64,000 nt of DNA from Cymbomonas tetramitiformis. Its lineage: Eukaryota; Chlorophyta; Pyramimonadophyceae; Pyramimonadales; Pyramimonadaceae. Of this stretch, positions 6,929 through 50,581 are shown in pieces. How positions within the stretch are numbered: position 1 is the stretch's first letter; each line of letters opens with the position of its first letter. The position numbers and the translations under genes were made by a program. The notes beneath the pieces were generated by a model that made no database searches, was not told the origin of the DNA, and saw nothing but the letters and a program-made list of their open reading frames with translations. The DNA lies in the NCBI GenBank assembly GCA_001247695.2, contig LGRX02028911.1:36398-100397 (forward strand). The letters run 5' to 3'.

Positions 6929-6971
6929 CCCTACAGATCTGCAACCCTTGGGAAAGCTTTCCATAGGCATG

Positions 6972-8170
6972 GAAACGGGTGAAAACCCTATGGAAAAGCC
7001 CTATGGAAAAGGGAAAATGAATACTGGAGGTTATCTCGAAAACAAAAAATTTGAGTTTCCATCCCTATACTCACCCTTGGGAAGGTTTTCATTATTTTCC
7101 AGGGCATTCCATAGGGTGATTGTGCTTTCCATAGGGTTTTCCAAGGCATTCCATAGGGATGATTGTGGCGTCCATACCTATGGAACGTTTTCCATAGGGA
7201 TGGAAGGAATCGTATGGAAAATATCGTATGGAAAACCCTATGGAAACCCAATGGAAAGTCCTGGAATATCAAGCGTTTTCCGTACCTATGTCATCCCTAT
7301 AGCATTCCTATGGAAAGCCGTATGGAAAACCCTGTGGAAAAACACACGGATATGTTCCATCCCTATGATCACCCTATGCTGGCCCTATGGAACCTAATAG
7401 GTCATACCTATGGAAATCTTTTCCCCAGGCATGGTACCCCTTGGGAAACCTGTTTCCATACGGACGGTGTACCTATGGAAGCGAATTCCATAGGCATGGT
7501 ATCCCTTGGGAAGCAATCTTCCATACGGTCGATATACCTATGGAACATTTTCCACAGGTATGGTATCCCCTGGGAAAGATCTTTCCATACGGACATTATG
7601 CCTACGGAAGACGGGCCCATACACTTAGCGTCCCTTGGGAAATAGGTTTCCATACGGCCGACATACTTATGGAAAGGTTTTCCACTGGGTGGCTCACCTT
7701 TGGGAAAGATTATTCCATAGGATGGCTATACCTATGGAAACACAATTCCATACGTGCTGTATACTTATGGAAAGGTATTCCATACGGTTATTATACGTAT
7801 GATTCCGTTAACAGCATCAGGAGTATACCTATGGAAACGCTTTCCGTAGGGTGACCCGCCCTATGGAATTCATATTCCATACGGTTATTATACTTATGGA
7901 GAGCATTTTCCGCAGGTGTACTATACCTACGGAAAGCTTTTTCCCCAGGGATACCATGCGTATGAAAACCGTATATTATAGGTATGGAAAACATCTTTCC
8001 CTACGTATGTTATCCGTATGGAAACTATTTACTATAGGCATAGTATAGGTATGGAACCAGTAGATATATATGGTTTCCATAGGCACGATATAGGGATAAT
8101 ATCGGGATGCTATACGTATGGAACTTAATTAATATTTACTTTCCATAGGCACAGTAGTGGGGCAGTATAG
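6972..8170. repeat. left subterminal repeat region (TTTCCATAGG / CCTATGGAAA)
   Basis: Dozens of copies of a 10-bp word, in both orientations and often as close inverted pairs, with variants such as TTTCCATACGG and CCTTGGGAAA. Spacing is irregular, mostly 15-45 bp. The many open frames here (on both strands, with recurring MENP, YGKP, HRYG peptides) arise because the repeat lacks stop codons; they are not genes. Confidence 0.9.
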
Positions 8171-8949
8171 GGATACTGTACGTGTAGCACTGACTGTGTA
8201 GCATACATATTGCACATTAGCAACATGCAGTGTGTTCACTATGTTTCCACTATGCGAGATAAACAAAATACTCGAGCATCTTTACTACGATTAACATGTA
8301 TCTAGCTAGGCAGAAAGGAATACGAATGGGACTATCAAATTTTATCATACCAACGAATACACAAAATTATGTTCTACTCGTGCACTTTCTATTTACAATA
8401 CGCAAAATAATGTTCTTCTCGTGCTCTTTCTATTTACAAGATGCCAACCTAAACGTTGACGTTGTACTCGAGGCCGTCGATTTTCTCCATCTCGCTTCGC
8501 TCCAAAACAACCGATCTAAAATGGAAAGTAAAGAGCCAACACTTAGTAAAAAAGCGGAAACGCACAAAAGAATATTCTATTGAAAACATAAAGGACTTAT
8601 CAACCTAGAATGTTTGAAGGGATGCTTGAAGTTGACGTTGTACTCGAGGCGGTCGATTTCCTCCATTTCGCCCTCCTCGAAAACAGCCAATCTGAAAAGG
8701 AAAGTAAAGAGCCAACACTTAGTAAAAAGCGGAAACGCACAAAATAAACCTTTATTGAAAACATAATTAACAACCGAGCAACCTCAAATAAATGCGAATA
8801 TCAACGCGAGATGAAAACCTAATATGACTTCGCCACGCGAACGTTTTCAGCGGATCTGAAAAACGAAACCAACCAACTAACGTTTAGTAAAGAAGAAAGA
8901 AAATAGCAGTCGTCAACGAAAGAAGCAAAGGAAAGTAAAAGGGGGATGT
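8171..8949 (-). repeat. duplicated exon-like unit with splice-acceptor signature
   Basis: Two units of about 179 bp (around 8453-8607 and 8632-8786) share GTTGACGTTGTACTCGAGG and GAGCCAACACTTAGTAAAAA; a third diverged piece lies near 8840-8910. On the minus strand each reads as branch-point-like TACTAAG, a pyrimidine tract (CTTTACTTTCC), an AG, then a short open frame containing EIDRLEYNVN or KIDGLEYNVN. That is the order of an intron end followed by an exon. The open frames are short (about 25-40 codons) and I do not recognise the peptide. They may be 3' exons of an ORF carried by the CACTA element or captured host exons. Confidence 0.45.
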
Positions 8950-9016
8950 GGAGTGAGTTGGATTTGAACCAACTATTTCGAGTGCAAAGGACTCGCGGGA
9001 ATTTCCCGTTCACTCC
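8950..9016 (-). tRNA. tRNA-like gene, 67 nt, reduced D arm
   Basis: On the minus strand the sequence folds as a near-complete cloverleaf: acceptor GGAGTGA pairs with TCACTCC (7/7), anticodon stem CGAGT with ACTCG (5/5) around a 7-nt loop CCTTTGC, T stem GTTGG with CCAAC (5/5) around TTCAAAT, and a 5-nt variable loop. The B-box GGTTCAAATCC is canonical for RNA polymerase III. The D arm is very short (GGGAAATTCCC), and position 33 is C rather than T, so a normal cytosolic tRNA is doubtful; the anticodon by position would be TTT. It lies inside the CACTA element. Alternatives: a tRNA-derived SINE head, an organelle-type tRNA copy, or a pseudogene. Confidence 0.4.
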
Positions 9017-9640
9017 TAGTCAAAGTTTCACGCATGCCAAGTATGAGCGCGCGAAGCACACACAAAATAATACACACGCATAACCAAAACATGCACTGCA
9101 AACCAGTGCCATATTGCAACCTGTGAGAATTAAAAATATCACAGCACGCAACTCACTGGCGAGGCTGCTGCAACATTGCTGACGGCGAACTGTGAAGAGT
9201 GCAATAACGTGAGTTTGAACTTGACCGTTCAGAAAAATCGAAGTGCTCAAAAACTTTGCCGTTCAGAAGTCACATCGGATCGACTCGTCATGCGAGCACG
9301 ATCGACGATGACGACGATGATGACGATGCGATGCGATGTCTCAGACTCTCTCACATGACATTGCATCGGAGATAATCGACTTATAAAATTTAAACTGGGA
9401 TTAAATGTAATCGACCCTTCGTAATGGTCTAGAGGTGGCCGTCGTTCTCAGTCTCAATCGAACCTATGAGATCCCGATTTTTTTTGAAGTTCCAGAAATA
9501 AAATCTCGACTAGCCAAAACAGCGCATACAGGCCGCAATTTTGTTTTTTTGCCCCCCTCGTCAGTGAACAAATGGTTTGTTTTCTTGGGGGTGATCGAAC
9601 AAGCTCATTTTATTTGGGGGGGTTTTTGGCGGCGGTAGGG
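9017..9640. other. interior of CACTA element without recognised gene
   Basis: Free of the TTTCCATAGG motif. Holds short open frames only, a GACGATGATGACGATGCGATG simple tract near 9306-9336, and AT-rich sequence. Nothing supportable as a gene. Confidence 0.5.
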
Positions 9641-10470
9641 GGTCTTCCATAGGGGTTTCCATAGGGATAGGCTCTGGATTTCCCATAGGGCACACCACTT
9701 TTTCCACAGGCTCCGGATTTTCCATAGGGTACATTGGTGATGTTTTTTAACCTGTTTCCAGGCCATTCCACAGGTATGGACGCCACAATCATAGGGATGA
9801 TCTCTGTGGCATTCCTTAACAGTGTAATTCTGCATTTTCCATAGGCATTTTCCAAGTGCGGCGTGTTGCTGTTGTAGGGTCCAAAAAGGGCCTGTTTTAA
9901 CCTGCCCTATTTTTCATTTTTTTAATTCCATCCCTATAAATAACCTATGGAATCCCGAAAATGGGGTGAGCCAACCTATGATCACCCGGTGGAAACGATT
10001 TCCATTGGGGCCTGTGGCAAATTTTCCAGAGCCATTCCATACGATTTTGAGATAGGGGATTTAAAAGTGCCCTATGGAAAGGTTTTTGCCCTATGGAAAG
10101 CCAATGGAAATGCGTTCCCATAGGTTTTACATAGGGTTTTTCCATCCCTGTGTAATTATTTCCAGCCCTACGGACGCCACTATTATAGGGTTAACACCTC
10201 GACCGTTCATAGAATATCAACCCAATATCCCTATGGAAAGTTCAAGTTATTTTCCCATAGGTTGTATAGGGTGGGCATCCCTATGGAACCAGAATACAGC
10301 ATTCCTAACGTATGTCCACCCTATGTCCACCCTACGTTCATGGTATGGAAGGTATTGAACACCTTCCATAGGGATGTCATTGGGCGGACCGCCCTATGGA
10401 ACACATCGTATTGTTTCCATGCCTATGCCCACCCTACGCCCACCCTATGACCACCTCATGATCACCCTAT
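9641..10470. repeat. internal block of TTTCCATAGG / CCTATGGAAA and CCACCCTATG words
   Basis: Same motif family as the subterminal regions, in both orientations, with a run of CCACCCTATG-type direct repeats from about 10310 to 10470 directly upstream of the transposase fragment. Confidence 0.85.
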
Positions 10471-10892
10471 GCCTAGCAAATGAAAAGTTAAAAAGGAAGC
10501 AACGGTTCCAAGTAGTCATGCGTGCTGGTATGGATGGTGTGTTGTGGGCCAGTATTAAACAACCACGGGGTCGACATGCCACCATGTCCTTGCACCGTGT
10601 GCCGACTACAAGTTGAAAAACCTCTTCGAACGATACAACGACATACGAAGCTATACAAGAGATGGCAAGGAGCGGTATACATGGGGAAAGTAGTAGTGAA
10701 GACGATACTTCAAGTGATGACGGGGGTGACCGTAATGGTGGTGATGGTGGTTCCCTTGGAGGTGATGATGACATGGAAGATGCCAATGCAGAAGCGGACG
10801 AAATTCTCCAGGATCATTTGAGAAAGCTGGAAGAACATTGTGCCCGTCTCCTAAGTCCTGCTGCCAACGATGAGGATATGGATAACCAAGAG

Positions 10893-11280
10893 GTACCCCT
10901 CTTTCTGTATTTCCCAAGGGTGGGCGTACGTATGCCAACAGGTGGGCATAGGTTGGGAAATCGTTGAACGTTTCCATAGGGTGGGAACAGGCATTCCCAG
11001 AGGCGGGTATAGGTAGGGCGCTGGGTAAGTATGCCTATGGAAAGCATTGGACGTTTCCAGTGGGTGGGCATAGGGCGAGCATTGGGCGGGCATAGGTTGG
11101 GAAAACATGGAATGTTTCCATAGGGTGGGCCTGAGCATTCCCAAGGGCGGGTATAGGTGGTTCACTGGGTAGGCATGCCTATGGAAAGCATTGGATGTTT
11201 CCATAGGGTCGGCATAGGGTGGGCATAGGACGGGCATAGGGTGGACATGCGGAGGGAAATGCCTTTTTTTTATTTTGCAG
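10893..11280 (+). other. putative intron 1 of the Tnp2 gene, made of element repeats
   Basis: Begins GTACCC after an acidic exon and ends in a strong pyrimidine tract plus TTTTGCAG at 11280. The interior consists of GGGCATAGG, TTTCCATAGGG and TTGGGAAA words, that is, the same family as the subterminal repeats. Confidence 0.5.
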
Positions 11281-11835
11281 TTCCTGTAAAGTTGGGGATG
11301 CCTCTCGTGATTTCACAGGTCGTTGATCACGTCTATGCCGAGAAGGTTTCAACAATGCATCGTCTTGTCATTGATCTGCTGGAAACGAAATCCGAGCACA
11401 ATGCTACCCAATCCATGTTTGATCAAATCTTCAATCTCATGCGGCAAACGGTGATTGGCAACGTTGACATCATCGGCAATTAGAGACGAAATGGTTTCCC
11501 GACCTCCTTCAAACAAGCTTTGTCTATGTGGAAGGATTTTGCCCTGCCGTACCATACCGCCGACGTTTGCAGGAATGAATGCATGATCTTCACTCCGGGC
11601 CGGCATGACGACCTTACCCAGTGCCTCCATTGCCACAAACTTCGGTGTCACCCCAGCTCTCGACGTAACGGACGGCTTATTCCGGGAAAGCCGTACAAGG
11701 TATTTAGGTTTTGGCGCTTGGACGAACTCCTGCCGATGCTATATTTGATACCAGAGATGGCCGAGCTCTTGGTATCATGGAAGATAACTACACCCGCGGA
11801 GAACGACGATCTGCCGGTTGTGACTACGTTTCATC

Positions 11836-12068
11836 GTAAGTGTATCCCTCCCACATGCTCACCCTATGCCCACCCTATAACATCCCTATGATCACCCTAT
11901 GTCCACGCTATAACATCCCTATGATCACCCTATGTCCACCCTATGCTCACCCTATGCCCAATTCACAATTGCCTTGCATCCTATGTTGACCCTATGCCCA
12001 CCCTATAGCCGCCCTATGTCCACCCTGTGCCCACCCTATGCTCACCCTTTGGAAAGTATGTGTTGCAG
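11836..12068 (+). other. putative intron 2 of the Tnp2 gene, made of element repeats
   Basis: Begins with a consensus donor GTAAGT and ends TGTGTTGCAG; the middle is a run of CACCCTATGCCCACCCTATG-type direct repeats. The codon phase is off by one with these sites, so either a nearby donor (11840) is used or the gene is decayed. Confidence 0.5.
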
Positions 12069-12465
12069 GTACGGCGAGCTTCTGAAAATTTATAGCATCC
12101 CGATTGGCAGGAAACAATTTGTTTTCCTCAAAGTAAGATGGTTTCCATTGAAGGCAGCATTTCAAGATACCGTGGCGAACAATATGATGTTGAGGTCGGA
12201 CTTGCCATGGGACCTTTCCGAGGTTTTCATCCAAGCATTTGAGATTGAGTGCTTGGTGTGCATTGTACCCATTCCATGGAACTTTGACCGGTTCATCACG
12301 ACCAAGAGAATTCCAGCTGGACGACCCGATGCAAATAGGTTGGTATATTATCTCGGCGAGCACAAACTCGGTTTCAATGATCCACCATGGAGATATGATA
12401 AAGACAAGATGATGCTCATACTAGATAGGCATGTAGATTTTGTGGGCGACTTACATGACGAATAA

Positions 12466-13584
12466 CTTGTTCATTTCATAGATGGAATTATTCTGTATAT
12501 TAATATGTATATATGTAGTAAAAGCCCTATGGAAAGCCTGGATATATCATGAATCATCACCCTATGCTCACCCTATGAAACCTGAATGGTTATACCTATG
12601 GAAACCCTTTCACAGGTACGGTATCCCTTGGGAAACATGTTTCCATACGGATGATATACCTACGGAAGACCTTTCCACTGGGTGGCTCACCCCTGGGAAA
12701 GCTCATTCCATAGGCTGGCTATACCTATGGAACTCGGTTCCATACGTACGGTATACGTGTGGAAACGTATTCCATATGGATACTATAGGTATCGACTTTG
12801 CCACCTGTATCAGGAGTATACCTACGGCATGCTCACCCTGTGTTATCCCTATAGCTAACCCTATGGAAACCCCTATGGAATTACGTCTTTATTGACCGAG
12901 AATACGCAGAATGAATTGTATATTTCCATAGGTATACTATCCCTATGGGGGCCCTATGGAAAGCCCTATGGAATTACGTTGATATTCCCGAGAATACGCA
13001 GAGTGAATTATACGTTTCCATAGGCCTACCATACCTATGGCATCCCTATGGAAGGCCCTATGGAATTACGACTTTATTCCCGAGAATACGCAGGGCGAAT
13101 TGTACATTTCCATAGGTGTACTATCGCTATGCCCGCCCTATGGAAAACCTTGTGGAAAACTCATAGTATACGCTAAGTTTCCATAGGTGCGCTATCCGTA
13201 CGCCCGCCCTACGCCCGCCCTTGGACATGCCTATGGAAAGCGTATGGGAAAGTTATATTTTCCATAGGGCTTTCCATCGGCCCCCTATGCCTATAGCCGC
13301 CCTATGGAAGGGTTTACATTTTCCATAGGGTTTTCCATAGTCCTGGTTATGCCTATAGTCGTCCTATGGAAATGTTTACTTTTCCATAGGGTGATTATAC
13401 GGCCTTCCATGCCTATGGAACGTCCTTTTCCATAGGCATACAGCCCTATAGAAACCCTATGGAAACTCCAAAAGGGGGTATCCCTATGGAAATACCCTAT
13501 GGAAAACTTTCCAAGCCTTTGGAAAATATTTCCGGATTTTCCCGAGCGTTCCCAAGGGCGGGCATAGGGAGGGCACAGGGATGA
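12466..13584. repeat. right subterminal repeat region (TTTCCATAGG / CCTATGGAAA)
   Basis: Mirror of the left region. From 12880 to 13110 there are also three longer near-repeats of about 70-75 bp containing CGAGAATACGCAGA and GAATTGTA(T/C)ATTTCCATAGG. No coding signal. Confidence 0.85.
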
Positions 13585-13627
13585 CATGCCTATGGAAAGC
13601 TTTCCCAAGGGTTGCAGATCTGTAGGG

Positions 13628-15708: not shown

Positions 15709-17504
15709 AGACGGCAGCCCTCGTACTCTGGGGAGCCGAGTCGTTGCCCTGTGGGTGTCGGAGCGCCAGCGGATGTCGCCATGGCTAGCAGCTCCTCCGT
15801 GACATCTACGTGGGCCAGCAGCTGGACCGAGCGGCTCGTCTTATCCTGGCTCTGCCGCAACTCCCGCTCAGCCTCTATGGCCCAAGTCAGGAGTTCGTGG
15901 CGGCCTTTACTGGCCGTCCGGCTCAGAGTCAGGACCGAAGCGCCTTTTCTCTCGGCTATAAGGAAGACCTTCCTCCTTATCTCCGGTATCAATCCCGTAA
16001 GGAATATCTCCAGCAGCTCCTCTTCCGGCACCGGAGAGGTGAGCTCGTGGGCAGCCAGCATGCTCACGATGTCGTGAGCAAGGTGCACCCCGTCCCAGAA
16101 CTCGCGGACCGTGCGAGTCTGTCTGTCCTGACTTTGACGCACGCGACGCAGGAACGGACCGATCGACGCCATTTCCCCCTTGTCGGGCATCACCAGCTGC
16201 GCCAAGGGAACCACTATGACGTCCAGGGTGAGGTTCTTACCTTCCCGAGCCTCTGTCAACACCGAAGAAAGCTCGCGGTACTCGGAGCTGAGTTTGCCGA
16301 AGCAGTGTCTGGCCACTTCTGACAGCAGGGAGTGGTCCGACAACACCTTCTCCTCACCAGGGTAGAAGTCTTCCAAATTTCTTTACGGCCCGCAAATGAT
16401 ATTTCCGCTGGCCCGCTTTCGGCCAAAACGGTCAAGGAAGAAAAATGCCCGCCGCAGGCGCGAAATTTTAAAATTAAGTATGGGGGTTTGATAAAAAGTG
16501 GCATAAAATGCCTATATTTTTGGCCGAAGTTTGGCCGGCTCATATTTTTGTGCGGCCCTGGGGCGAAAGCCCCTTCGGCCCGCTTTCGGCCCGGAGCGAG
16601 CTTCTGCGGCCCCGGGCCGGCCCGCCACGGTAAGACTTCTACCCTGCTCCTCACCCCCGCTCTCTAGTGGTCCCAGACGCGCCATCTCCATGGCGTAGCG
16701 CACCGGCTCCAGTTCCCGAACCTCCCTGACCTGCCGAACAAATCGGAGGAGCCGACCAAAGACGTGGGACGACCCCTCCACCTCTGTGTGGTATTTGTCC
16801 ACTGCCTTCTCCATGGCTCTGGTGGCCTCCTTGAGAGCGTGCTGCTCGTCCTTACGACTGTAATGGCTCCGGGGCTCCCTGTAACGAGAGGAAGACGAGA
16901 AGGTGAACTGGCTGTCGCCATCCCCGTCTTCGCCATCGCCGCCAGGGTCCTCGTCCGGACTCCCCGGGCCTCCCGGCCCTCCAGGGTCACCGCTCCCCGA
17001 GCCACCAGGACCACCATGACTGCTGGCACCGGGCATCTCCGAAAGCTCGTTTGGCTCCGAGTGCTCCAGTTGAGGGACCATCCCCCCCCCGTCTCCCGGT
17101 GTGTCTGCCGCCTTAGGAAGCGGAGGTGGCATCACAGCCGGAAAGTGGTCGAAAGCACCGGGCCACACGTCCGCGGCGCAAAACCCACACACCGGCAGGT
17201 ACACCTTTTTCATGAACGCCACCACACTTCTCTTAGCGCTTGCCTGACACGCCCACATACGCACCGGGCTCTCCTCGTGCCCGCACCCACAGCGAGCGCA
17301 GCTCTCTGCGACGGACGCCAAGGCCGTCGTGAGACTGTGAATCACCTGGGCCCCGAGGACCCTGTCCTCGTCCGAGAACTTTGCCTTCAGGCACTGCCTG
17401 ATCTGGTTGGTAGGGTGTAAGCACCCGGCGACCTGACCAAGGGCGCGATACCTCAAGGTACGGCTTACGCGGAGGCGATTTGAGACAAAAGTGTCAGAGC
17501 TCAA
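15516..17504 (-). CDS. element A Gag with candidate intron
   Basis: Nucleocapsid-type protein of the retrotransposon. Exon 1 (17504-16643) has a Cys-rich N part (SCARCGCGHEE, VCGFCAADVW), a Gly/Pro/Asp-rich linker and the start of a helical capsid-like region. Exon 2 (16369-15516) continues the helical region and ends with a CCHC zinc knuckle CRLCKSMDHYARDC followed by an acidic tail. The two frames are separated by a 273-nt segment (16642-16370) that begins GTAGAA and ends GGAAG on the coding strand; removing it keeps the frame exactly (split codon G/AC). This segment is a TIR element (see separate entry). The first ATG is at the beginning of the open frame and may not be the true start, because Gag may continue from ORF1 upstream. 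A GC-rich imperfect hairpin lies just upstream of the stop (about 15529-15555), close to the gag/pol overlap. Confidence 0.75.
16359..16645. mobile_element. introner-like TIR element 1 in gag A
   Basis: Ends are AGGGTAGAAGTCTTCC (16359-16374) and its near-exact inverse at 16629-16645. Flanks are TCTCCTCACC (16349-16358) and GCTCCTCACC (16646-16655), a 10-bp target duplication with one mismatch. The interior is GGCCGAA/CGGCCCG-rich with an AT-rich centre and is clearly related to the element at 36996-37262. On the gag (minus) strand, GT 3 nt inside one end and AG 11 nt before the other end form an intron of 273 nt. Element plus one duplication is therefore seen as a DNA insertion that became, or acts as, an intron. 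Confidence 0.8.
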
Positions 17505-22586: not shown

Positions 22587-23038
22587 GGCTCAACGTTCAA
22601 TTCCCGATCCGATCTCATTTCTAATTCCGATTCGTCATTCTCGATTCAGATGATATATCGACAGACTGACACGATGACTGCCCCACAGTACTGTCATACT
22701 ACTGTACTGTCATACTGTCATAGTGTCATAGTGTCATACTGTCATAGCCCCGACATCTGATATTCGATTTCATTGTCTTTTCAACCCCGATGCGAATCTG
22801 ACCATTCTTCGAGGGTCTGACTGAGTGCCACGATGACACCCCCCACAGTACTGTCATACTACTATAGTGTCATAGTGCATAGTCATAGTGTCATACTGTC
22901 ATACCCCGGACATCTGGTATTCATTCTCATCGTGATTTCAAGCCCAATTTCACTGTCATCGTGCCAATCCCAGATTACCCCCGATGACACACATATAGAC
23001 GCATAGGCATATCGGCTCACGCTGTGCCTCCGGGCACA
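22587..23038 (-). repeat. 3' LTR of element B
   Basis: Near-identical to 35787-36241. Contains runs of TGTCATA(C/G) heptamer-like words (22689-22746 and 22853-22904) whose copy numbers differ between the two LTRs, and the conserved stretch CAACCCCGATGCGAATCTGA. Confidence 0.85.
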
Positions 23039-35786: not shown

Positions 35787-36241
35787 GGCTCAACGTTCAA
35801 TTCCCGATCCGATCTCATTTCTAATTCCGATTCGTCATTCTCGATTCAGATGCTATATCGACAGACTGACACGATGACTGCCCCACAGTACTGTCATACT
35901 ACTGTACTGTCATACTGTCATACTGTCATACTGTCATAGCCCCGACATCTGATATTCGATTTCATTGTCTTTTCAACCCCGATGCGAATCTGACCATTCT
36001 TCGAGGGTCTGACTGAGTTCCACGATGACACCCCCCACAGTACTGTCATACTACTATAGTGTCATACTGTCATAGTGTCATAGTGTCATAGTGTCATACT
36101 GTCATACCCCGGACATCTGGTATTCATTCTCATCGTGGTTTCAAGCCCAATTTCACTGTCATCGTGCCAATCCCAGATTACCCCCGATGACACACATATA
36201 GACGCATAGGCATATCGGCTCACGCTGTGCCTCCGGGCACA
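35787..36241 (-). repeat. 5' LTR of element B
   Basis: Near-identical partner of 22587-23038. The TGTCATA-type repeats differ in copy number between the two (35905-35938 and 36045-36107 here), so the copies have diverged mainly by microsatellite slippage, suggesting a fairly young insertion. Confidence 0.85.
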
Positions 36242-37823
36242 CGTGGGCTCAGCCGGCACAAAGGAATGTGCCGACAGCTCGACCACCTCTGGGCGACCTT
36301 CCATCGTGCAGAGCGACTCGAAGGCATGTTCATCCCCAGCGTCATAGAAACGCTGGAAACGAACAGCCAGGCAGTCAGTCTCATAGTCCTCAACTGCACC
36401 ACAGTAGTGGGCAGACTGAGGACCACCGTTGGGGCATTCAGCATGCCAGTGTTTCAAACCACTTTGTGCACACTCCGCATTTCTGCAGTGAGGCACGAAG
36501 GCACCGCTCTTCTTGTCAAACGAGACAGGAGGAGCGGTGCCAAGTGGCTTAACACCAGCACGATGATGCTTAGCAGCAGAGCGGGTAAGGTGCTTGCCCG
36601 CAGGCGGTGCCCCTTCCCGCTTCTGCCGCTTTAGGTCACGAATGTCCTGCTGCATGCGCTCCAGCTGCTTCTGCAGACTGGACAACGCCGCAGCCAGGTC
36701 AGACGCGCCATCGCCGAATGACAGAGCAGAGACACGGGTGTCAGAGACTTTCAGGCCGTGGCGGAACTGCTCCCGCACACGAGCCTGAATAGTCAAGAGA
36801 GGCACGCCCTGCCGCTGGTCAGCTCGAGCCAAGGAATTAGCCAAGTCACGGTACAACGCCCAATTGCCGAGAGCCTTTAGAAACTGCCGCTTCACCGCGT
36901 CCTCTGGCAAGTTGTGGGAACGCTGAACGTCCCGCAACAGGCCATTGAACTCACGGATGCCACGGTCAGGATCTTCGCTGCCGGGGATGCGAACCAGGGA
37001 AGACATCTTCCTGGGATTGGCCGGCCCGGGGCCGTGTCACGGAGGCCCGGGCCGAAGGCGGGCCGAAGGAAGAGTTGCGGATGGGCCGAGTCGCACTGAG
37101 GGGAAAATCGATAAATTTCCAAAGTTTTATCGATTTTTGACAAATTGTCATACTTAAAATTAAAATTTTGTTAATTAAAAGTTCGGGCCGAGACGGGCCG
37201 AAATGTGGCCGAAGTAAATTCCCAATGCGGGCCGAGTCACCTCCGCGGAAGATATCTACCCTGATGCGAACCGCCAGCAGCGACTCAAAAGAGTCAAAGG
37301 GCTCTGAGCGTTCCTGGAGCATGCGTACCACCTCAAGGGCAGCACGCTTGCCATCTCCAGGAACGTCAGACCCAGAGGCCTCAAGCCAGTCACGAGCAGG
37401 CGAGCCAGGGCGAGCCAGAAACGTCAGAGCCGAGAGCAGCAACTCGTTGCCCTCATGCCTAGCCGCAACAGTCATGTCAGTCAGGTCAAAGAGGGGAGCA
37501 AATGCTTGTGACTGGAGCAGGAATTGCGTGCGCAACTCATGCATGAGCTGCGAAAAAATGTCGACTGCGTCGGTTACCGTTCCAGCGAAGCGTTTTGATT
37601 TGTCCCCAAGTATTTTCGTGGCAACGATCTTGGCAACCCTCCTGTCAAAATTTTCGCGAGCAAGCTGCTGACATTTGTCAAGAACCTCTCTCGCAGCTGC
37701 GGTGGTCGGAGCTGGCAGCTGCGGTGTGTGCGGTGTAGCAGCGTGCTGCGCACCCACGTCATCAAAAATCGTCTCTAATCTACGGACGCGAGACCGCGTC
37801 ACTCTATTCGCTGTAGCAACCAT
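36242..37823 (-). pseudogene. Gag of element C, truncated by element B, with candidate intron
   Basis: ATG 37823 (MVATANRVTRSRV). Exon 1 runs to 37260, exon 2 from 37006 to the junction with the B LTR at 36241. The protein is homologous along its length to Gag of element D (for example ETIFDDVGAQHA against ATIFDSAAARHA; HWHAECPNGG against HWHRDCPNGG). A non-standard Cys-His motif (C-x4-C-x7-HWHxxCP) replaces the usual CCHC knuckle. The intron candidate 37259-37007 (GTAGAT...GGAAG) is phase 0 and its removal keeps the frame; D has no insertion at the matching position. The C-terminal end is lost where B is inserted. Confidence 0.8.
36996..37262. mobile_element. introner-like TIR element 2 in gag C
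   Basis: Ends AGGGAAGACATCTTCC (36996-37011) and GGAAGATATCTACCCT (37247-37262) form imperfect 16-bp inverted repeats. The flanks are identical 10-bp copies, GATGCGAACC, at 36986-36995 and 37263-37272. The interior shares GGCCGGCCCGGGGCCG, GCGGGCCGAAGG and CATACTTAA words with element 1, but it is inserted in the opposite orientation relative to gag. On the coding strand the TIRs again supply GT (3 nt in) and AG (11 nt from the end). 267 bp. Confidence 0.85.
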
Positions 37824-41429: not shown

Positions 41430-42510
41430 GTAAGTAACTTGAAGCCTTGAGCTTCAACTTACTGAAAGGTATGTATCTTGGCAGTATGTGTGCCAAGTTT
41501 CGTGCTCTAGGACGCACGGGAAGCCCTCGGCTGTTTGGCATCTTTGGGTTTGGGTGTCACGTTCGAACCCAAACCCAAAACATCTGCCTTAGAAATAGAT
41601 TGCGCGTTTCGCGCACAAGTAACTTGAAGCCTTGAGCTTCTGGTAACTTAAATATATGTACCATGGCAGTATTCGTGCCAAGTTTCGTGCTCTAGGACGC
41701 ACGGGAAGCCCTCGGCTGTTTGGCATCTTTGGGTTTGGGTGTCACGTTCGAACCCAAACCCAAAACATCTGCCTTAGAAATAAATTGCGCGTTTCGCGCA
41801 CAAGTAACTTGAAGCCTTGAGCTTCTGGTAACTTAAATATATGTATCTTGGCAGTATTCGTGCCGAGTTGCGTGCTCTAGGACGCACGGGAAGCCCTCGG
41901 CTGTTTGGCATCTTTGGGTTTGGGTGTCACGTTCGAACCCAAACCCAAAACATCTGCCTTAGAAATAAATTGCGCGTTTCGCGCACAAGTAACTTGAAGC
42001 CTTGAGCTTCTGGTAACTTAAATATATGTACCATGGCAGTATTCGTGCCAAGTTTCGTGCGTTAGGACGCACGGGAAGCCCTCGGCTGTTTGGCATCTTT
42101 GGGTTTGGGTGTCACGTTCGAACCCAAACCCAAAACATCTGCCTTAGAAATAGATTGCGCGTTTCGCGCACAAGTAACTTGAAGCCTTGAGCTTCTGGTA
42201 ACTTAAATATATGTACCATGGTAGTATTCATGCCAAGTTTCGTGCGTCTAGGACGCACGGGAAGCCCTCGGCTGTTTGGCATCTTTGGGTTTGGGTGTCA
42301 CGTTCGAACCCAAACCCAAAACATCTGCCTTAGAAATAATTGCGCGTTTCGCGCACAAGTAACTTGAAGCCTTGAGCTTCTGGTAACTTAAATATATGTA
42401 CCATGGTAGTATTCGTGCCAAGTTTCGTGCGTTAGGACGCACGGGAAGCCCTCGGCTGTTTGGCATCTTTGGGTTTGGGTGTCACGTTCGAACCCAAACC
42501 CAAAGGCAAA
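41430..42510. repeat. 185-bp satellite, six copies
   Basis: The marker AAGCCCTCGGCTG occurs at 41521, 41706, 41891, 42076, 42262 and 42446 (spacings 185, 185, 185, 186, 184). Each unit carries three hairpin-capable segments: TGCGCGTTTCGCGCA, GAAGCCTTGAGCTTC and a 12-bp inverted pair TTTGGGTTTGGG ... CCCAAACCCAAA. The loop of the last includes GTTCGAACCC, which matches a Pol III B-box, though no tRNA fold is present. Confidence 0.92.
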
Positions 42511-42765
42511 GGCATAGGACCGTTTCGTAGATTCTGTCCCGATGCCTTTGCAACCTCGCTTGCTAACTCATATTACAATGAATATTCAACATTCAAGCGT
42601 TGGAGACCCCACGCCAACGGGAAGCGCTCGGCTGATTTGTTATTTGGGTATGCGCACCCAAATGACAAAAAACGCATTTTTGAAACTCGTTAGGTTCAAA
42701 GATGCGTGGCCGATGCCTTCGTGCTTATGTGTGTTAATCCATATGAAATATTCCATGGAATAAAT

Positions 42766-46184: not shown

Positions 46185-46401
46185 TGGCAGATATATGGTT
46201 CGTCGGTAATATAATTATATCTAACTGAGAGATAAACCCTGAGTTAAGGGTTACGGAATCAGAACGGTGAAAGTGTGATAGATAAATCAGAGTCATACAT
46301 AAATACCTAACGGGTGTTTCCCGTCTACTGGTGACGGTCACCCAGCCTACCATAGGAAGTGACATGTGACAGTTTTGAGTGTCACAGTGTCAGATCCAGC
46401 A
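46185..46401 (-). repeat. 3' LTR of element D
   Basis: Pairs with 49341-49549. Contains an inverted pair GACTACTGG-like core: CTACTGGTGACGGTCACCCAG, whose centre GGTGACGGTCACC is palindromic. Confidence 0.9.
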
Positions 46402-46655
46402 CACCACCTAGGGTGGTGACCGTAGCTAGTAGCGAAACGAAGTAACAAACTCCCTACTCAACTTCAGGAGGAAACTGTAGCACAACTGGGGGCCTGTACT
46501 CTTGGTCAGGGCGGTCCCAGTTCACAGCAAAGATTGTCAGGTACTGATGTTAATTTTGCCAAAACCCTAAACACAGCTCAAATTCAGAGAGCTCTTCTGC
46601 GCATCTAGGAAGTCACACTATAGTTAACCTCTAGGCAGGCACGTTGTGATCAATC

Positions 46656-47285
46656 TCAGCCACTAGAGGTCTTCGGAGCTGGCGGTCCGGCTCGGAGCAG
46701 CGTGATTGTGAAGCAGTTGCCGGCCCCCGGGGCCGTTGGTGAATCATTCGTAGAAGAAATTGACGAATCCTCGATCACAGGAGGCTGCACCGCACCGGGG
46801 TGCTGCCAAGTGCTGCCCGACGGTGGGGCCTCGTCATCTGAAGACGATGCCGGCGACAGCGGAGGACCGTCCTCAAACAACTCGGCAGGCGGCGGCGGCC
46901 CGGGATGCCACGGCACCGGAGCCATATAGAGGCCCTGCCGTCTCTGCTCACGCCGGTGGCGACGAGGTGGAATAGCACACGGCATGTCATGAACCATTTC
47001 AGTTGGCGAAGCCTCCGTGGCCGGGACTGCTGAGGCAGTCCACCAAGCACCACCGACCGGTGGACCCGTGCATGTGCGTGCACCGGCACCACCGACACCG
47101 GCAACGGCGTGCGGCGCGGCGGTGGCACAAATTACAAAGAGTGCGCACACCAAGGAGGAAGTGAGGAGAGACCTCGCGAACCTCGGAACACCGTTCCCGC
47201 AGCCGTACCGTGGCCGCGGCAGTGCCACCGGGTCGTCCTCGTCGTCATCGTCGCTCGTGGCGTAAGTCGCGGGCTTGTAGTCCAT
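46656..47285 (-). CDS. element D ORF2, putative membrane protein
   Basis: ATG at 47285-47283 overlaps the gag stop by one nucleotide (TGATG), a layout that suits termination-reinitiation. The product is 209 residues: an acidic N part (ATSDDDDEDD), one hydrophobic segment of about 22 residues at roughly 38-60 (SLLTSSLVCALFVICATAAP) that could span a membrane or serve as a signal anchor, then a basic patch (PPRRHRREQRRQ) and a Pro/Ser-rich acidic tail. No family recognised. A longer frame starting at 47432 overlaps gag and is less likely to be the true start. Confidence 0.5.
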   Translation of the reverse strand: MDYKPATYATSDDDDEDDPVALPRPRYGCGNGVPRFARSLLTSSLVCALFVICATAAPHAVAGVGGAGARTCTGPPVGGAWWTASAVPATEASPTEMVHDMPCAIPPRRHRREQRRQGLYMAPVPWHPGPPPPAELFEDGPPLSPASSSDDEAPPSGSTWQHPGAVQPPVIEDSSISSTNDSPTAPGAGNCFTITLLRAGPPAPKTSSG

Positions 47286-48958
47286 CACGCGTTCCGGCCC
47301 CTCGCAACCGCGGAGAGCAAATGCATGCTCGGGGCCGGCTCGTCGGGCACCAATGCAACCCCCGTGCTCCCAATGAAATCGGCGAACGTGCGGGTGACGG
47401 GAGGGCAGAAGGGGTTCGGCGGACCGGTCCACGCTCCCCCGGACCCAACCGACGCGGGCGGGGAGTGCGCGGGCGGTTCCGACACCACCGGCAAGTCGGC
47501 AGTGAAGGTGTTGACGTTGAATGTCGAATCCCCCGCCGCGCGCGCCAACTCGGAGAACTCGGTGACGGCGGACACGAGGGCCTCACCGTCCTCCTCGCAG
47601 AAAGAGCACGCGGAGAGGTCGGCGAAGATGTCCGGCTTCTTGCCCGCGAGCATGCAAAGGGCGTCGAACTCCTCGGCGTCGTCGTGGTCGATGGCATGCT
47701 GAAATTTTGCGGCCAACACCGAGTTCTCGGCCTCCTCAGCGAAAGCGTAGGCCGAGAGCCCGGTCCGGCCCCCGTTCGGGCAGTCCCGATGCCAATGCCG
47801 CGCCTTGCCCTTCGCGCACACCTGATTTTGGCAGTACGGCACGGTCGCACCGGTGTCGCGATGGAATGCTACCTTCTTGGAGATGGACTGCGACCAATTC
47901 CCCCCCTTGGGGAGGGGCGAGGCCGCGAAACGCGTCTTAATGCGGCGGTCCGGCTTGTCCGCGCGAGGAGTAAATCCCCGCGGAGCCGGTCCGGACTCGG
48001 CGGTGTCGAGGAATGCGGCCAATTGACGCTTCAAGTCGAGGACCATCGTCCTCAAGTCCGCGAGCTCACCGGGTCCACCGGAGTCATCGGCGGCCCCCTC
48101 CATGAAATGCGTACCGTGGGAGTAGCGGTGCGCGGACGCCGTGGCGGTGCCCGCCCGCACGTGCTCGGAGTAGCATTCACGCACCCATTGTTGAATCGTG
48201 AGGAGGTCGTGAGCGGCTCGTTGATCGTGGAGGAGCAACCGTGACACCACCGGTTGGTAGAAGACGGTGTCGAGGGACTTGATGAACAGCGCCTTCACGT
48301 CCTCATCGTGGAGAGTCGCCCGCGTTCTCGCAGCCTTCAGAGCGGCGTTGAAGTCGCCGATCCTGTCATGCGGATCCACGCCCGCAGAGATGCGGATGCT
48401 CAACATGTCCGCTTGACCCTGAAAGGGGTCACCCGCCGGGATCATGCGGCGGGCAAACTCAAGCAGCACCCGCTTACCGTCATTCGGGAACGTGGAGTGC
48501 GAGGAGTCCATCCAGTCCGCCGCTGGCGACGCGGGGTCAACCATGAGCTCGAGCGTGGAGAACAATAAGGCGTTGGCCTCCACGCGGACGGGGAGGGTAG
48601 CATCGTCCAGTAGGAAAAGGGGTGCGGAACCAATGTCCTCCGTGACAAATGCTGTCTGCAGCGCAGAGACCATCCTGGCGAAGAGCGCGGACGCGTGGCA
48701 CTCAGTCCCGGAAAATCGCCCGTTCTTGTCCTCGAATAACTTTTGGCGAACGGACTTGGAGACCTTCATGTCGAAGTGCTCCCGTTGAATCGTACGCACC
48801 GAGGCCAGGAACGCAGCACCCGCCGAATTGGCAGCTGGCTGAGCTGCCGGCGGTGTGGCTGGAGTGTTGGCGTGTCTCGCAGCTGCTGAATCAAAAATCG
48901 TGGCTAGTGCGCGTCGGCGATTCGCCATGCTAGCGGTGGCTCGAGTAGAAGCAACCAT
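47285..48958 (-). CDS. element D Gag
   Basis: 557-residue frame, start chosen at ATG 48958 (MVASTRATAS) because it matches the start of Gag C; the frame itself is open to 49138. Helical capsid-like region (FDMKVSKSVRQKL, DAKRVLLEFARRM-type helices), then a Cys-His motif C-x4-C-x8-HWHRDCPNGG and an acidic C-terminal part with SACSFCEEDGEALV. It packages element RNA. The frame is intact, unlike Gag in A, B and C, and has no intron at the site where C carries an introner-like element. Confidence 0.85.
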   Translation of the reverse strand: MVASTRATASMANRRRALATIFDSAAARHANTPATPPAAQPAANSAGAAFLASVRTIQREHFDMKVSKSVRQKLFEDKNGRFSGTECHASALFARMVSALQTAFVTEDIGSAPLFLLDDATLPVRVEANALLFSTLELMVDPASPAADWMDSSHSTFPNDGKRVLLEFARRMIPAGDPFQGQADMLSIRISAGVDPHDRIGDFNAALKAARTRATLHDEDVKALFIKSLDTVFYQPVVSRLLLHDQRAAHDLLTIQQWVRECYSEHVRAGTATASAHRYSHGTHFMEGAADDSGGPGELADLRTMVLDLKRQLAAFLDTAESGPAPRGFTPRADKPDRRIKTRFAASPLPKGGNWSQSISKKVAFHRDTGATVPYCQNQVCAKGKARHWHRDCPNGGRTGLSAYAFAEEAENSVLAAKFQHAIDHDDAEEFDALCMLAGKKPDIFADLSACSFCEEDGEALVSAVTEFSELARAAGDSTFNVNTFTADLPVVSEPPAHSPPASVGSGGAWTGPPNPFCPPVTRTFADFIGSTGVALVPDEPAPSMHLLSAVARGRNA

Positions 48959-49340
48959 CTTAAGAAGGACTGAAGGGGCGGAGTGAGGCAATGGAACGTG
49001 AGATGTGCGGCAGTTTCGGGCGGCCAAGAAACGCGTGGGTCGCCGATACGGCAGCCGTGAGAGATCAAATAATTCCGGGAAGTCGTGTGGTAGCGGCGGC
49101 CAATACGCAACGGTGTGGGATCCAACCAGAAAACGCAAACCAATCCAACGTTAAGACCCGTAGAAAATCTCTCTCCAACCGGTGCGGCGTGCCGTAAATC
49201 AACCCATAAAATTTAGGCCATACCCGTGACTGCCGGCACTCTCACGCGTGGAGCACCTCACTCCATCCCAGGCGTCCGAGCTTAGCCACTCATGGTGGCA
49301 ATCTCGCAGTGGCTAAACAAAGCGCAAGTGGGGCCAAACC

Positions 49341-49549
49341 TGGCAGATATATGGTTCGTCGGTAATATATAACTGAGAGATAAACCCTGAGTTAAGGGTT
49401 ACGGAATCAGAACGGTAAAAGTGTGATAGATAAATCAGAGGCATACATAAATACCTAACGGGTGTTTCCCGTCTACTGGTGACGGTCACCCAGCCTACCA
49501 TAGGAAGTGACATGTGACAGTTTTGAGTGTCACAGTGCCAGATCCAGCA
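49341..49549 (-). repeat. 5' LTR of element D
   Basis: Pairs with 46185-46401; outer flank ATTAA. Confidence 0.9.
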
Positions 49550-49996
49550 ATTAAAGCATTCTAACATGAAATAATGCATGCTCACAATTGACATCACTCA
49601 TCATTAAGTGATGCATTTTCACACGGAATATTAATGAACGAATGCTTACGATTGGCGTCACTCATCAGCAATTGATGCATTTGAAAGTACATGATGTAAT
49701 GCATGGGTGCTAGGACATTATGATGAGCATCATCCGGGTTTTTTCGACCCGCATAGCCTACGTAGATTTGTGGGTTTTAGACAGATGCTGTAAATATGCC
49801 TACTATCACTCCGGGTTATGTAAATTTACAACAGAATATAGCTTATGTAAATTTGCCACATTCAAGACATATTTGATATATATGTGGGAAGTAGGCACCC
49901 TTAACATTTCTTTTGTAGTTGAGACAGATGCCGAATGTATATGCAATATATGCGCCCCCCGTAAACATATGAACTATGACTTCACATCCCGTAAGT

Positions 49997-50218
49997 ATGC
50001 AGCAAATTTGCACCTACAGCAAATATGCAGCAAATTTGCACCTACAGCAAATATGCAGCAAATTTGCACCTACAGCAAATATGCAGCAAATTTGCACCTG
50101 CAGCAAACATGCAGCAAATTTGCACCTATAGCAAATATGCAGCAAATTTGCACCTACAGCAAATATGCAGCAAACTTGCACCTGCAGCAAATATGTGGCA
50201 AATTTGCACCTAAAGCAT
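49997..50218. repeat. 28-bp tandem repeat, eight copies
   Basis: Unit ATGCAGCAAATTTGCACCTA (plus 8 nt) at 49997, 50025, 50053, 50081, 50109, 50137, 50165 and 50193. It contains the palindrome GCAAATTTGC. The open frames on both strands here (QQICTYSKYAANLH pattern) come from the repeat. Confidence 0.92.
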
Positions 50219-50289
50219 ATAGGCTGGGCATATGCACTCTTGGCAAAAATACATACATTATGCATAAACTGCAATCATGATGATCTGGG

Positions 50290-50581
50290 ATTGAAATGCA
50301 TACCCCCGATGTGGATTAAAATGAGATGTCTACACCCGCCCGATGTAGATTAAAATGAGATGTCAGCCCCCGATGTAGATTAAAACGACATAATCAATTA
50401 AAATCAAATGTCGCCCCCGACGTAGATTGAAATGAGATGGCTGCCCCGATGTAGATTAAAATGAAGTGTTGTCCCCGATGTAGATTAAAATGAAATTGTC
50501 GCCCCGATGTAGATTAAAATGAGATGTCGGCCCTCGATGTAGATTAAAATCAAATGTCGGTCCCCGATGTAGACTTATCCC
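50290..50581. repeat. right terminal array of 30-bp repeats (inverted relative to the left)
   Basis: Copies of CCCCGATGTAGATTAAAATGA-type units spaced about 30 bp, reverse complement of the left array. Confidence 0.85.

Follow-up and report, generated by a model that had tools for sequence, protein, structure and literature searches.

Whether a transposon-like segment that breaks a reading frame is only an insertion, or an intron carried in by a mobile element, is the question raised by one gag copy (gag C) in a 64,000-nt stretch of the Cymbomonas tetramitiformis genome (contig LGRX02028911.1), here called the window. The gag C frame, on the minus strand, is broken by the segment 36986-37272, which the initial annotation had read as an introner with its own splice sites. 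Considering all the results below, we concluded, with a probability of about three in four, that the segment arose when a non-autonomous, cut-and-paste, hAT-like MITE recently inserted into one copy of an LTR-retrotransposon gag that is young and present in high copy number; the insert may be a protointron, but routine splicing is not favored.

The insertion in gag C and its empty sites

The features of the locus are listed below, with a slash at each putative splice junction.

36242..37823, minus strand: coding homology of gag C, broken by the element and ending where a direct repeat starts
36995..37263, minus strand: the element, with edges taken from 79 placed family copies; the strand given is the sense strand of gag C, on which the GT end comes first
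36987..36994, no strand: 8-bp target site duplication ATGCGAAC, from the sequence
37264..37271, no strand: second copy of the 8-bp target site duplication ATGCGAAC, from the sequence
37247..37263, minus strand: terminal inverted repeat with GT, CAGG/GTAGATATCTTCC; candidate donor with a putative intron start at 37259 (GT here in 66/69 copies)
36995..37011, plus strand: opposite terminal inverted repeat CAGGGAAGACATCTTCC; the plus-strand donor place reads GA, not GT (GA in 64/69 copies, GT in 0/69)
36995..37011, minus-strand reading of the opposite repeat, ending GGAAG/ATGTCTTCCCTG; candidate acceptor with a putative exon restart at 37006
37007..37259, minus strand: hypothetical 253-nt GT-AG intron, phase 0, from sequence only
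47285..49138, minus strand: gag D, a distant gag relative without the insertion, from sequence comparison

The corrected element is 269 bp long, with ends CAGGG...CCCTG. A 10-bp duplication had been described around it, and the perfect 10-mer GATGCGAACC is indeed present on both sides of 36986-37272, but the edges of the 79 placed copies reject a duplication of that length: the true one is 8 bp, lengthened by a single chance match on either side. The G and C added in the 10-mer happen to coincide with the terminal bases of the element, and both extra matches occur in 4 of the 59 copies with a perfect duplication.

Uninterrupted relatives of gag C were found. When the joined flanks (300 nt) were compared with the genome, the best 40 of 1414 first-look candidates were all empty sites of 99% identity (39 over 300/300 bases and one over 299); filled gag C copies would rank lower in such a search, which therefore shows many empty sites and not the absence of other filled copies. 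No interruption occurs at the insertion site in the annotated proteins P0003, P0004 and P0005. The gag C protein gave six matches, all from C. tetramitiformis and none identical, the best with 84% identity over 76% of the query. Gag D, which had been proposed as the empty-site comparison within the window, does lack the insertion, but at 31-37% identity to gag C it is far more distant than the empty sites of 99% identity.

The gag C insert is thus a real transposon insertion, and the mobile family with terminal inverted repeats (TIRs) and a target duplication that had been proposed was borne out by consistent edges in the placed copies. That the segment is a chance repeat or an assembly artefact has a negligible probability; this explanation was refuted by the hundreds of matches to the element head, by the consistent edges of the placed copies, each with its own duplication, and by the clean empty sites.

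A high-copy family with hAT-like ends

The family, with ends denoted CAGGGTAGA-type, is abundant and nearly uniform. A 28-nt head gave 742 exact matches (386 + 356) in the 852-Mb genome and none for the reversed control, and a DNA search with the element scored the best 40 of 1152 first-look candidates. Eighty loci were examined, namely the 30 best BLAST matches (including the window copy), the first 30 pattern matches in contig order and 20 more from the pattern list. A copy could be placed in 79 of them, with the duplication matching at 8/8 positions in 59, at 7/8 in 10 and at fewer in 10. Among the 69 copies whose duplications match at 7 or 8 positions, mean pairwise identity was 97.5%, a length of 281 bp was shared by 30, and the heads CAGGGTAG and CAGGGAAG were present in 65 and 63, respectively. 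No longer relatives were seen among the nine odd copies looked at, and a scan of viral contigs for the head found none. At one locus (L050), four extra bases lie between the perfect duplication and the element head on the left edge, which resembles a transposon footprint or a slipped insertion.

The sampled copies sit mainly in repeated, retroelement-like sequence. At 70 of the 79 loci the flanks are similar to the window or to another locus, and when 50 pieces taken from 43 loci were scanned with Pfam, retroelement-type domains exceeded the cut-off in seven loci (L004, L015, L022, L048, L057, L060 and L076). An integrase core fell just under the cut-off in L007, a domain of unknown function was seen in L059, and most pieces had no match; none of the 50 pieces gave a housekeeping domain. 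A methyltransferase-like frame is interrupted by the element in the GT orientation (GT end upstream) at L036, where six related proteins are uninterrupted.

Insertions shared between loci were clear in only two pairs among the 79 placed copies. In one, L011 and L012, the two sequences do not differ over 3279 bp and may come from a single locus that was assembled twice. The other, L005 and L007, consists of two retroelement copies that have the same unspliced insertion (about 1400-1900), adjoining an integrase frame in the GT orientation. Flank identity between them is 96.5% overall, but no difference occurs in the roughly 500 bp surrounding the element, a pattern suggestive of gene conversion or of gap repair templated by a filled copy.

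A second element in the window belongs to a sister subfamily.

16358..16646, plus strand: copy 1 of the sister subfamily, 289 bp, with the 8-bp duplication CTCCTCAC and a GT near either end; its orientation within its gag is opposite to that of the gag C element

Copy 1 aligned with the family consensus end to end at 73% identity and in one orientation only, scoring 254 against 168 in the other orientation and a maximum of 155.5 over 200 shuffles. Because the homology runs in one orientation only and both gags lie on the minus strand, copy 1 and the gag C element are opposite relative to their genes, which confirmed the related, oppositely oriented copy that had been noted. For the copy-1 subfamily, the best 40 of 2116 candidates were scored, plus two more matches in one contig, and the 20 that were fetched are among the closest.

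The anatomy of the family points to hAT elements. Ends that start with CAGGG and a target preference of nTnnnnAn are both hAT traits, and the ends and duplication bias of this family presumably represent the hAT pattern. The 8-bp duplication was perfect in 59 of 79 copies and in 20 of 21 of the sister subfamily, and the TIRs start with CAGGG. Among 57 distinct perfect duplications, T occupied position 2 in 28 (p = 2e-5) and A occupied position 7 in 24 (p = 0.001), against a background of 23%, and the two occurred together in 12, so the target preference is present as a bias and not as a strict rule. The family resembles hAT-type MITEs, of which the Drosophila family Mar is reportedly an example, in its 8-bp duplication, its CAGGG-starting ends, its short and near-identical copies and the lack of a transposase frame within about 280 bp. 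It differs from them in the GT and AG embedded at frame-neutral places, in the sampled copies lying mostly in retroelement-like frames, and in the lack of an autonomous partner at the hAT places inspected.

Regarding that partner, the hAT dimerisation domain PF05699 was above the cut-off at the best 150 of 2176 first-look candidates, with 0/14 control genomes positive, and none of the 13 places inspected among these 150 had an element with matching ends. For this reason we infer, and do not observe, a hAT transposase as the source of mobilisation. Judged by the anatomy, such a transposase, supplied in trans, would make an 8-bp staggered cut into which the element is pasted, and repair of the cut would produce the 8-bp duplication. 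If the insert is a MITE and nothing more, the locus shows that a young hAT-like family of high copy number, accompanied by a sister subfamily, is present in a phagotrophic prasinophyte genome and lands in retrotransposon genes.

Candidate splice sites and the case for splicing

Read on the gag (minus) strand, the element has GT after its first 4 nt and AG 12 nt before its end; both signals had been noted correctly, at distances of 3 and 11 that the new edges shift by one. When 37259-37007 (253 nt, phase 0) is taken out, an open run of 501 codons results within the 0.9 kb examined to either side, with 24 nt added; the frame restoration claimed at the outset thus holds. A second AG (CCCAG, 16 nt from the end and 4 nt upstream of the first) would shift the frame, and in-frame splicing as the sole outcome was therefore rejected.

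Alignment of the family copies, which had been proposed as a check, showed that the signals depend on strand. On the gag C strand, AG was kept in 64/69 copies and GT together with AG in 61/69, so that candidate frame-restoring splice sites near the ends, as an introner would have, are usual on that strand. Only the end that lies upstream in gag C carries GT in the 69-copy sample; the opposite strand had GT in none and AG in all 69, and one locus outside the sample (L116) has GT at the otherwise GT-less end. It had been argued that both TIRs must encode usable signals on either strand, which fails for this subfamily and holds for the copy-1 subfamily, where GT and AG were present at both ends, and so on both strands, in 21/21 sampled elements. 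In both subfamilies GT and AG lie at the same distances from the ends, and 4 + 12 + 8 gives 24, a multiple of three. Such an arrangement is what a splice-adapted element would be expected to have and would count against a plain MITE, as does the predicted fold of the element RNA, in which the two ends are paired (z = -5.8). If the GT and AG of the near-palindromic ends were used, 253 nt would be removed and 24 nt added in frame, and the insert could be a protointron.

Introners with TIRs, duplications and carried splice sites have been reported, and the closest to the present element are those of Aureococcus (PMC9860276). As described there, they share with it a TIR element, an 8-bp duplication, both potential splice sites on the element and 4 bp + 8 bp added on one side; they add 12 bp where the present element would add 24 bp, and their splicing and gene enrichment are shown by annotations and RNA, whereas those of the present element are hypothetical. 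The introner elements of Amoebophrya (PMC7789003) likewise have inverted repeats able to pair both splice sites and short direct repeats, but these repeats are of 3-5 nt and the splice sites are non-canonical, against 8 bp and canonical GT-AG here. A passage of PMC10228655 cites Huff et al. (2016) for introner insertion in both orientations. The Cymbomonas genome is described as repeat-rich in parts of PMC10675990 and PMC5741210, and no mention of introners was found in those parts.

Several indirect tests bear on splicing. The element sites lay in open runs of at least 200 codons in 43/67 loci, more often than the remaining positions of these loci (48%), shuffles (1.5%) or window positions (40%), and with its clean empty sites this is a family of similar sequences in coding sequence, as introners would form. 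Orientation was even: 58 of 67 usable loci had a stop-free run of at least 100 codons over the joined site, with the GA end upstream in 28 and the GT end in 30 (p = 0.90). For runs of at least 150 codons, the 41 loci in contig order leaned to the GT orientation (20:11, p = 0.15) and the 26 best-BLAST loci to the other (13:7, p = 0.26), neither significantly; two relatives of gag C (L029 and L030) have the insertion with its GA end upstream. The 28:30 split counts against routine splicing because the orientations are even although only one end has GT, and it leaves room for splicing because selection may not act on retroelement frames.

A spliced retroelement transcript that was reverse transcribed would leave a scar, that is, a 16-nt junction between the duplicated 8-mers. 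Exact genome searches gave one match to the main scar pattern CAGGATRTCTWCCCTG, without a duplication, where about 1.6 are expected by chance from pattern length; one match to the copy-1 subfamily scar CAGGACTTCTACCCTG, again without a duplication, where 0.4 are expected; and no match to the alternative-acceptor scar CAGGGAAGATRTCTTCCCTG. The gapped pattern of the mirrored junction gave seven matches, of which two were fetched and proved to be element ends and five were judged to be element ends from the printed match alone. That of the copy-1 subfamily gave six (reversed control, three), none starting with the subfamily head as judged from the printed match. On the gag strand of the present subfamily, these searches covered the donor at position 4 combined with either acceptor (12 or 16 nt from the end), and their power is limited by the need for re-transposition after insertion, which looks rare in the sample. 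The extra 8 residues of a scar were absent from 3/3 paralog proteins aligned for gag C, from 6/6 L036-related proteins examined (of 100 matches) and from 5/5 copy-1-related proteins examined (of 7 matches).

Two splicing explanations have to be weighed against these results. In one, the spliceosome removes the MITE from gag transcripts at CAGG/GT...GAAG/A in the GT orientation, and a gag product with eight additional residues survives. The exactly restored frame, the conservation of GT, AG and both on that strand, the insertions in long open runs and the precedent of Aureococcus introners whose two splice sites add 4 bp plus the 8-bp duplication (PMC9860276) speak for it. Nevertheless, we consider it unlikely, given that no duplication-flanked scar copies were found and the main pattern occurs no more often than by chance, that the stronger-looking CAG acceptor 4 nt upstream (63/69) would shift the frame, that the orientation bias is not significant, and that L005 and L007 share an unspliced insertion by an integrase frame in the GT orientation. 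In the other, the element is spliced in both orientations, with GT-AG or GA-AG according to strand here and GT-AG on both strands in the copy-1 subfamily. The mirror-placed donor and acceptor in all 21 sampled copy-1 elements, GA at 64/69 and AG at 69/69 of the mirrored places in the present subfamily, the even orientation split and introner families with up to 40% GA donors (PMC9860276) are consistent with this; however, mirror symmetry follows from having inverted repeats, and the mirrored-junction scar was absent even with donors within the first 28 nt included, which makes it very improbable.

It also seems rather doubtful that both subfamilies are introners with a mirror-symmetric splice code in hAT terminal repeats, spreading largely through retrotransposon genes. 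If this code were true, a donor 4 nt and an acceptor 12 nt from either end plus the 8-bp duplication would make a frame-neutral addition of 24 nt in any phase, the copy-1 subfamily would be frame-neutral in either orientation, and retrotransposon genes would act as natural intron-loss reporters. If the elements were spliced, they would represent a family of introners that insert harmlessly in both orientations owing to their symmetric ends, and in their retrotransposon setting splicing could be read from DNA, since any re-transposed spliced copy must have the 16-nt scar between its duplicated 8-mers. The spliced intron proposed by the initial annotation was not supported, with no splicing scar for the junctions searched. 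We therefore favor the hAT-like MITE insertion, possibly with introner status: the insert could be a protointron, the indirect tests do not favor routine splicing, and we infer its absence.

Other structures in the window

A direct repeat of about 452 bp (22587-23038 and 35787-36241, with ungapped blocks 98-99% identical) brackets about 12.7 kb, and a short target duplication with TG/CA ends was sought at this repeat and not found. Gag C looks 3'-truncated, because its homology stops exactly where the right copy of this repeat begins. Gag D lies between two 185-nt direct repeats that are 98% identical and 3148 bp apart (46217-49549), and from its sequence it looks like a short gag-only LTR element. 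Elsewhere, palindromic TTCCATAGG/CCTATGGAA repeats are densely arrayed over 6929-13600, between the arms of a perfect 43-bp inverted repeat, and tandem arrays lie at 41432-42656 (period 185 bp) and 49909-50300 (period 28 bp).
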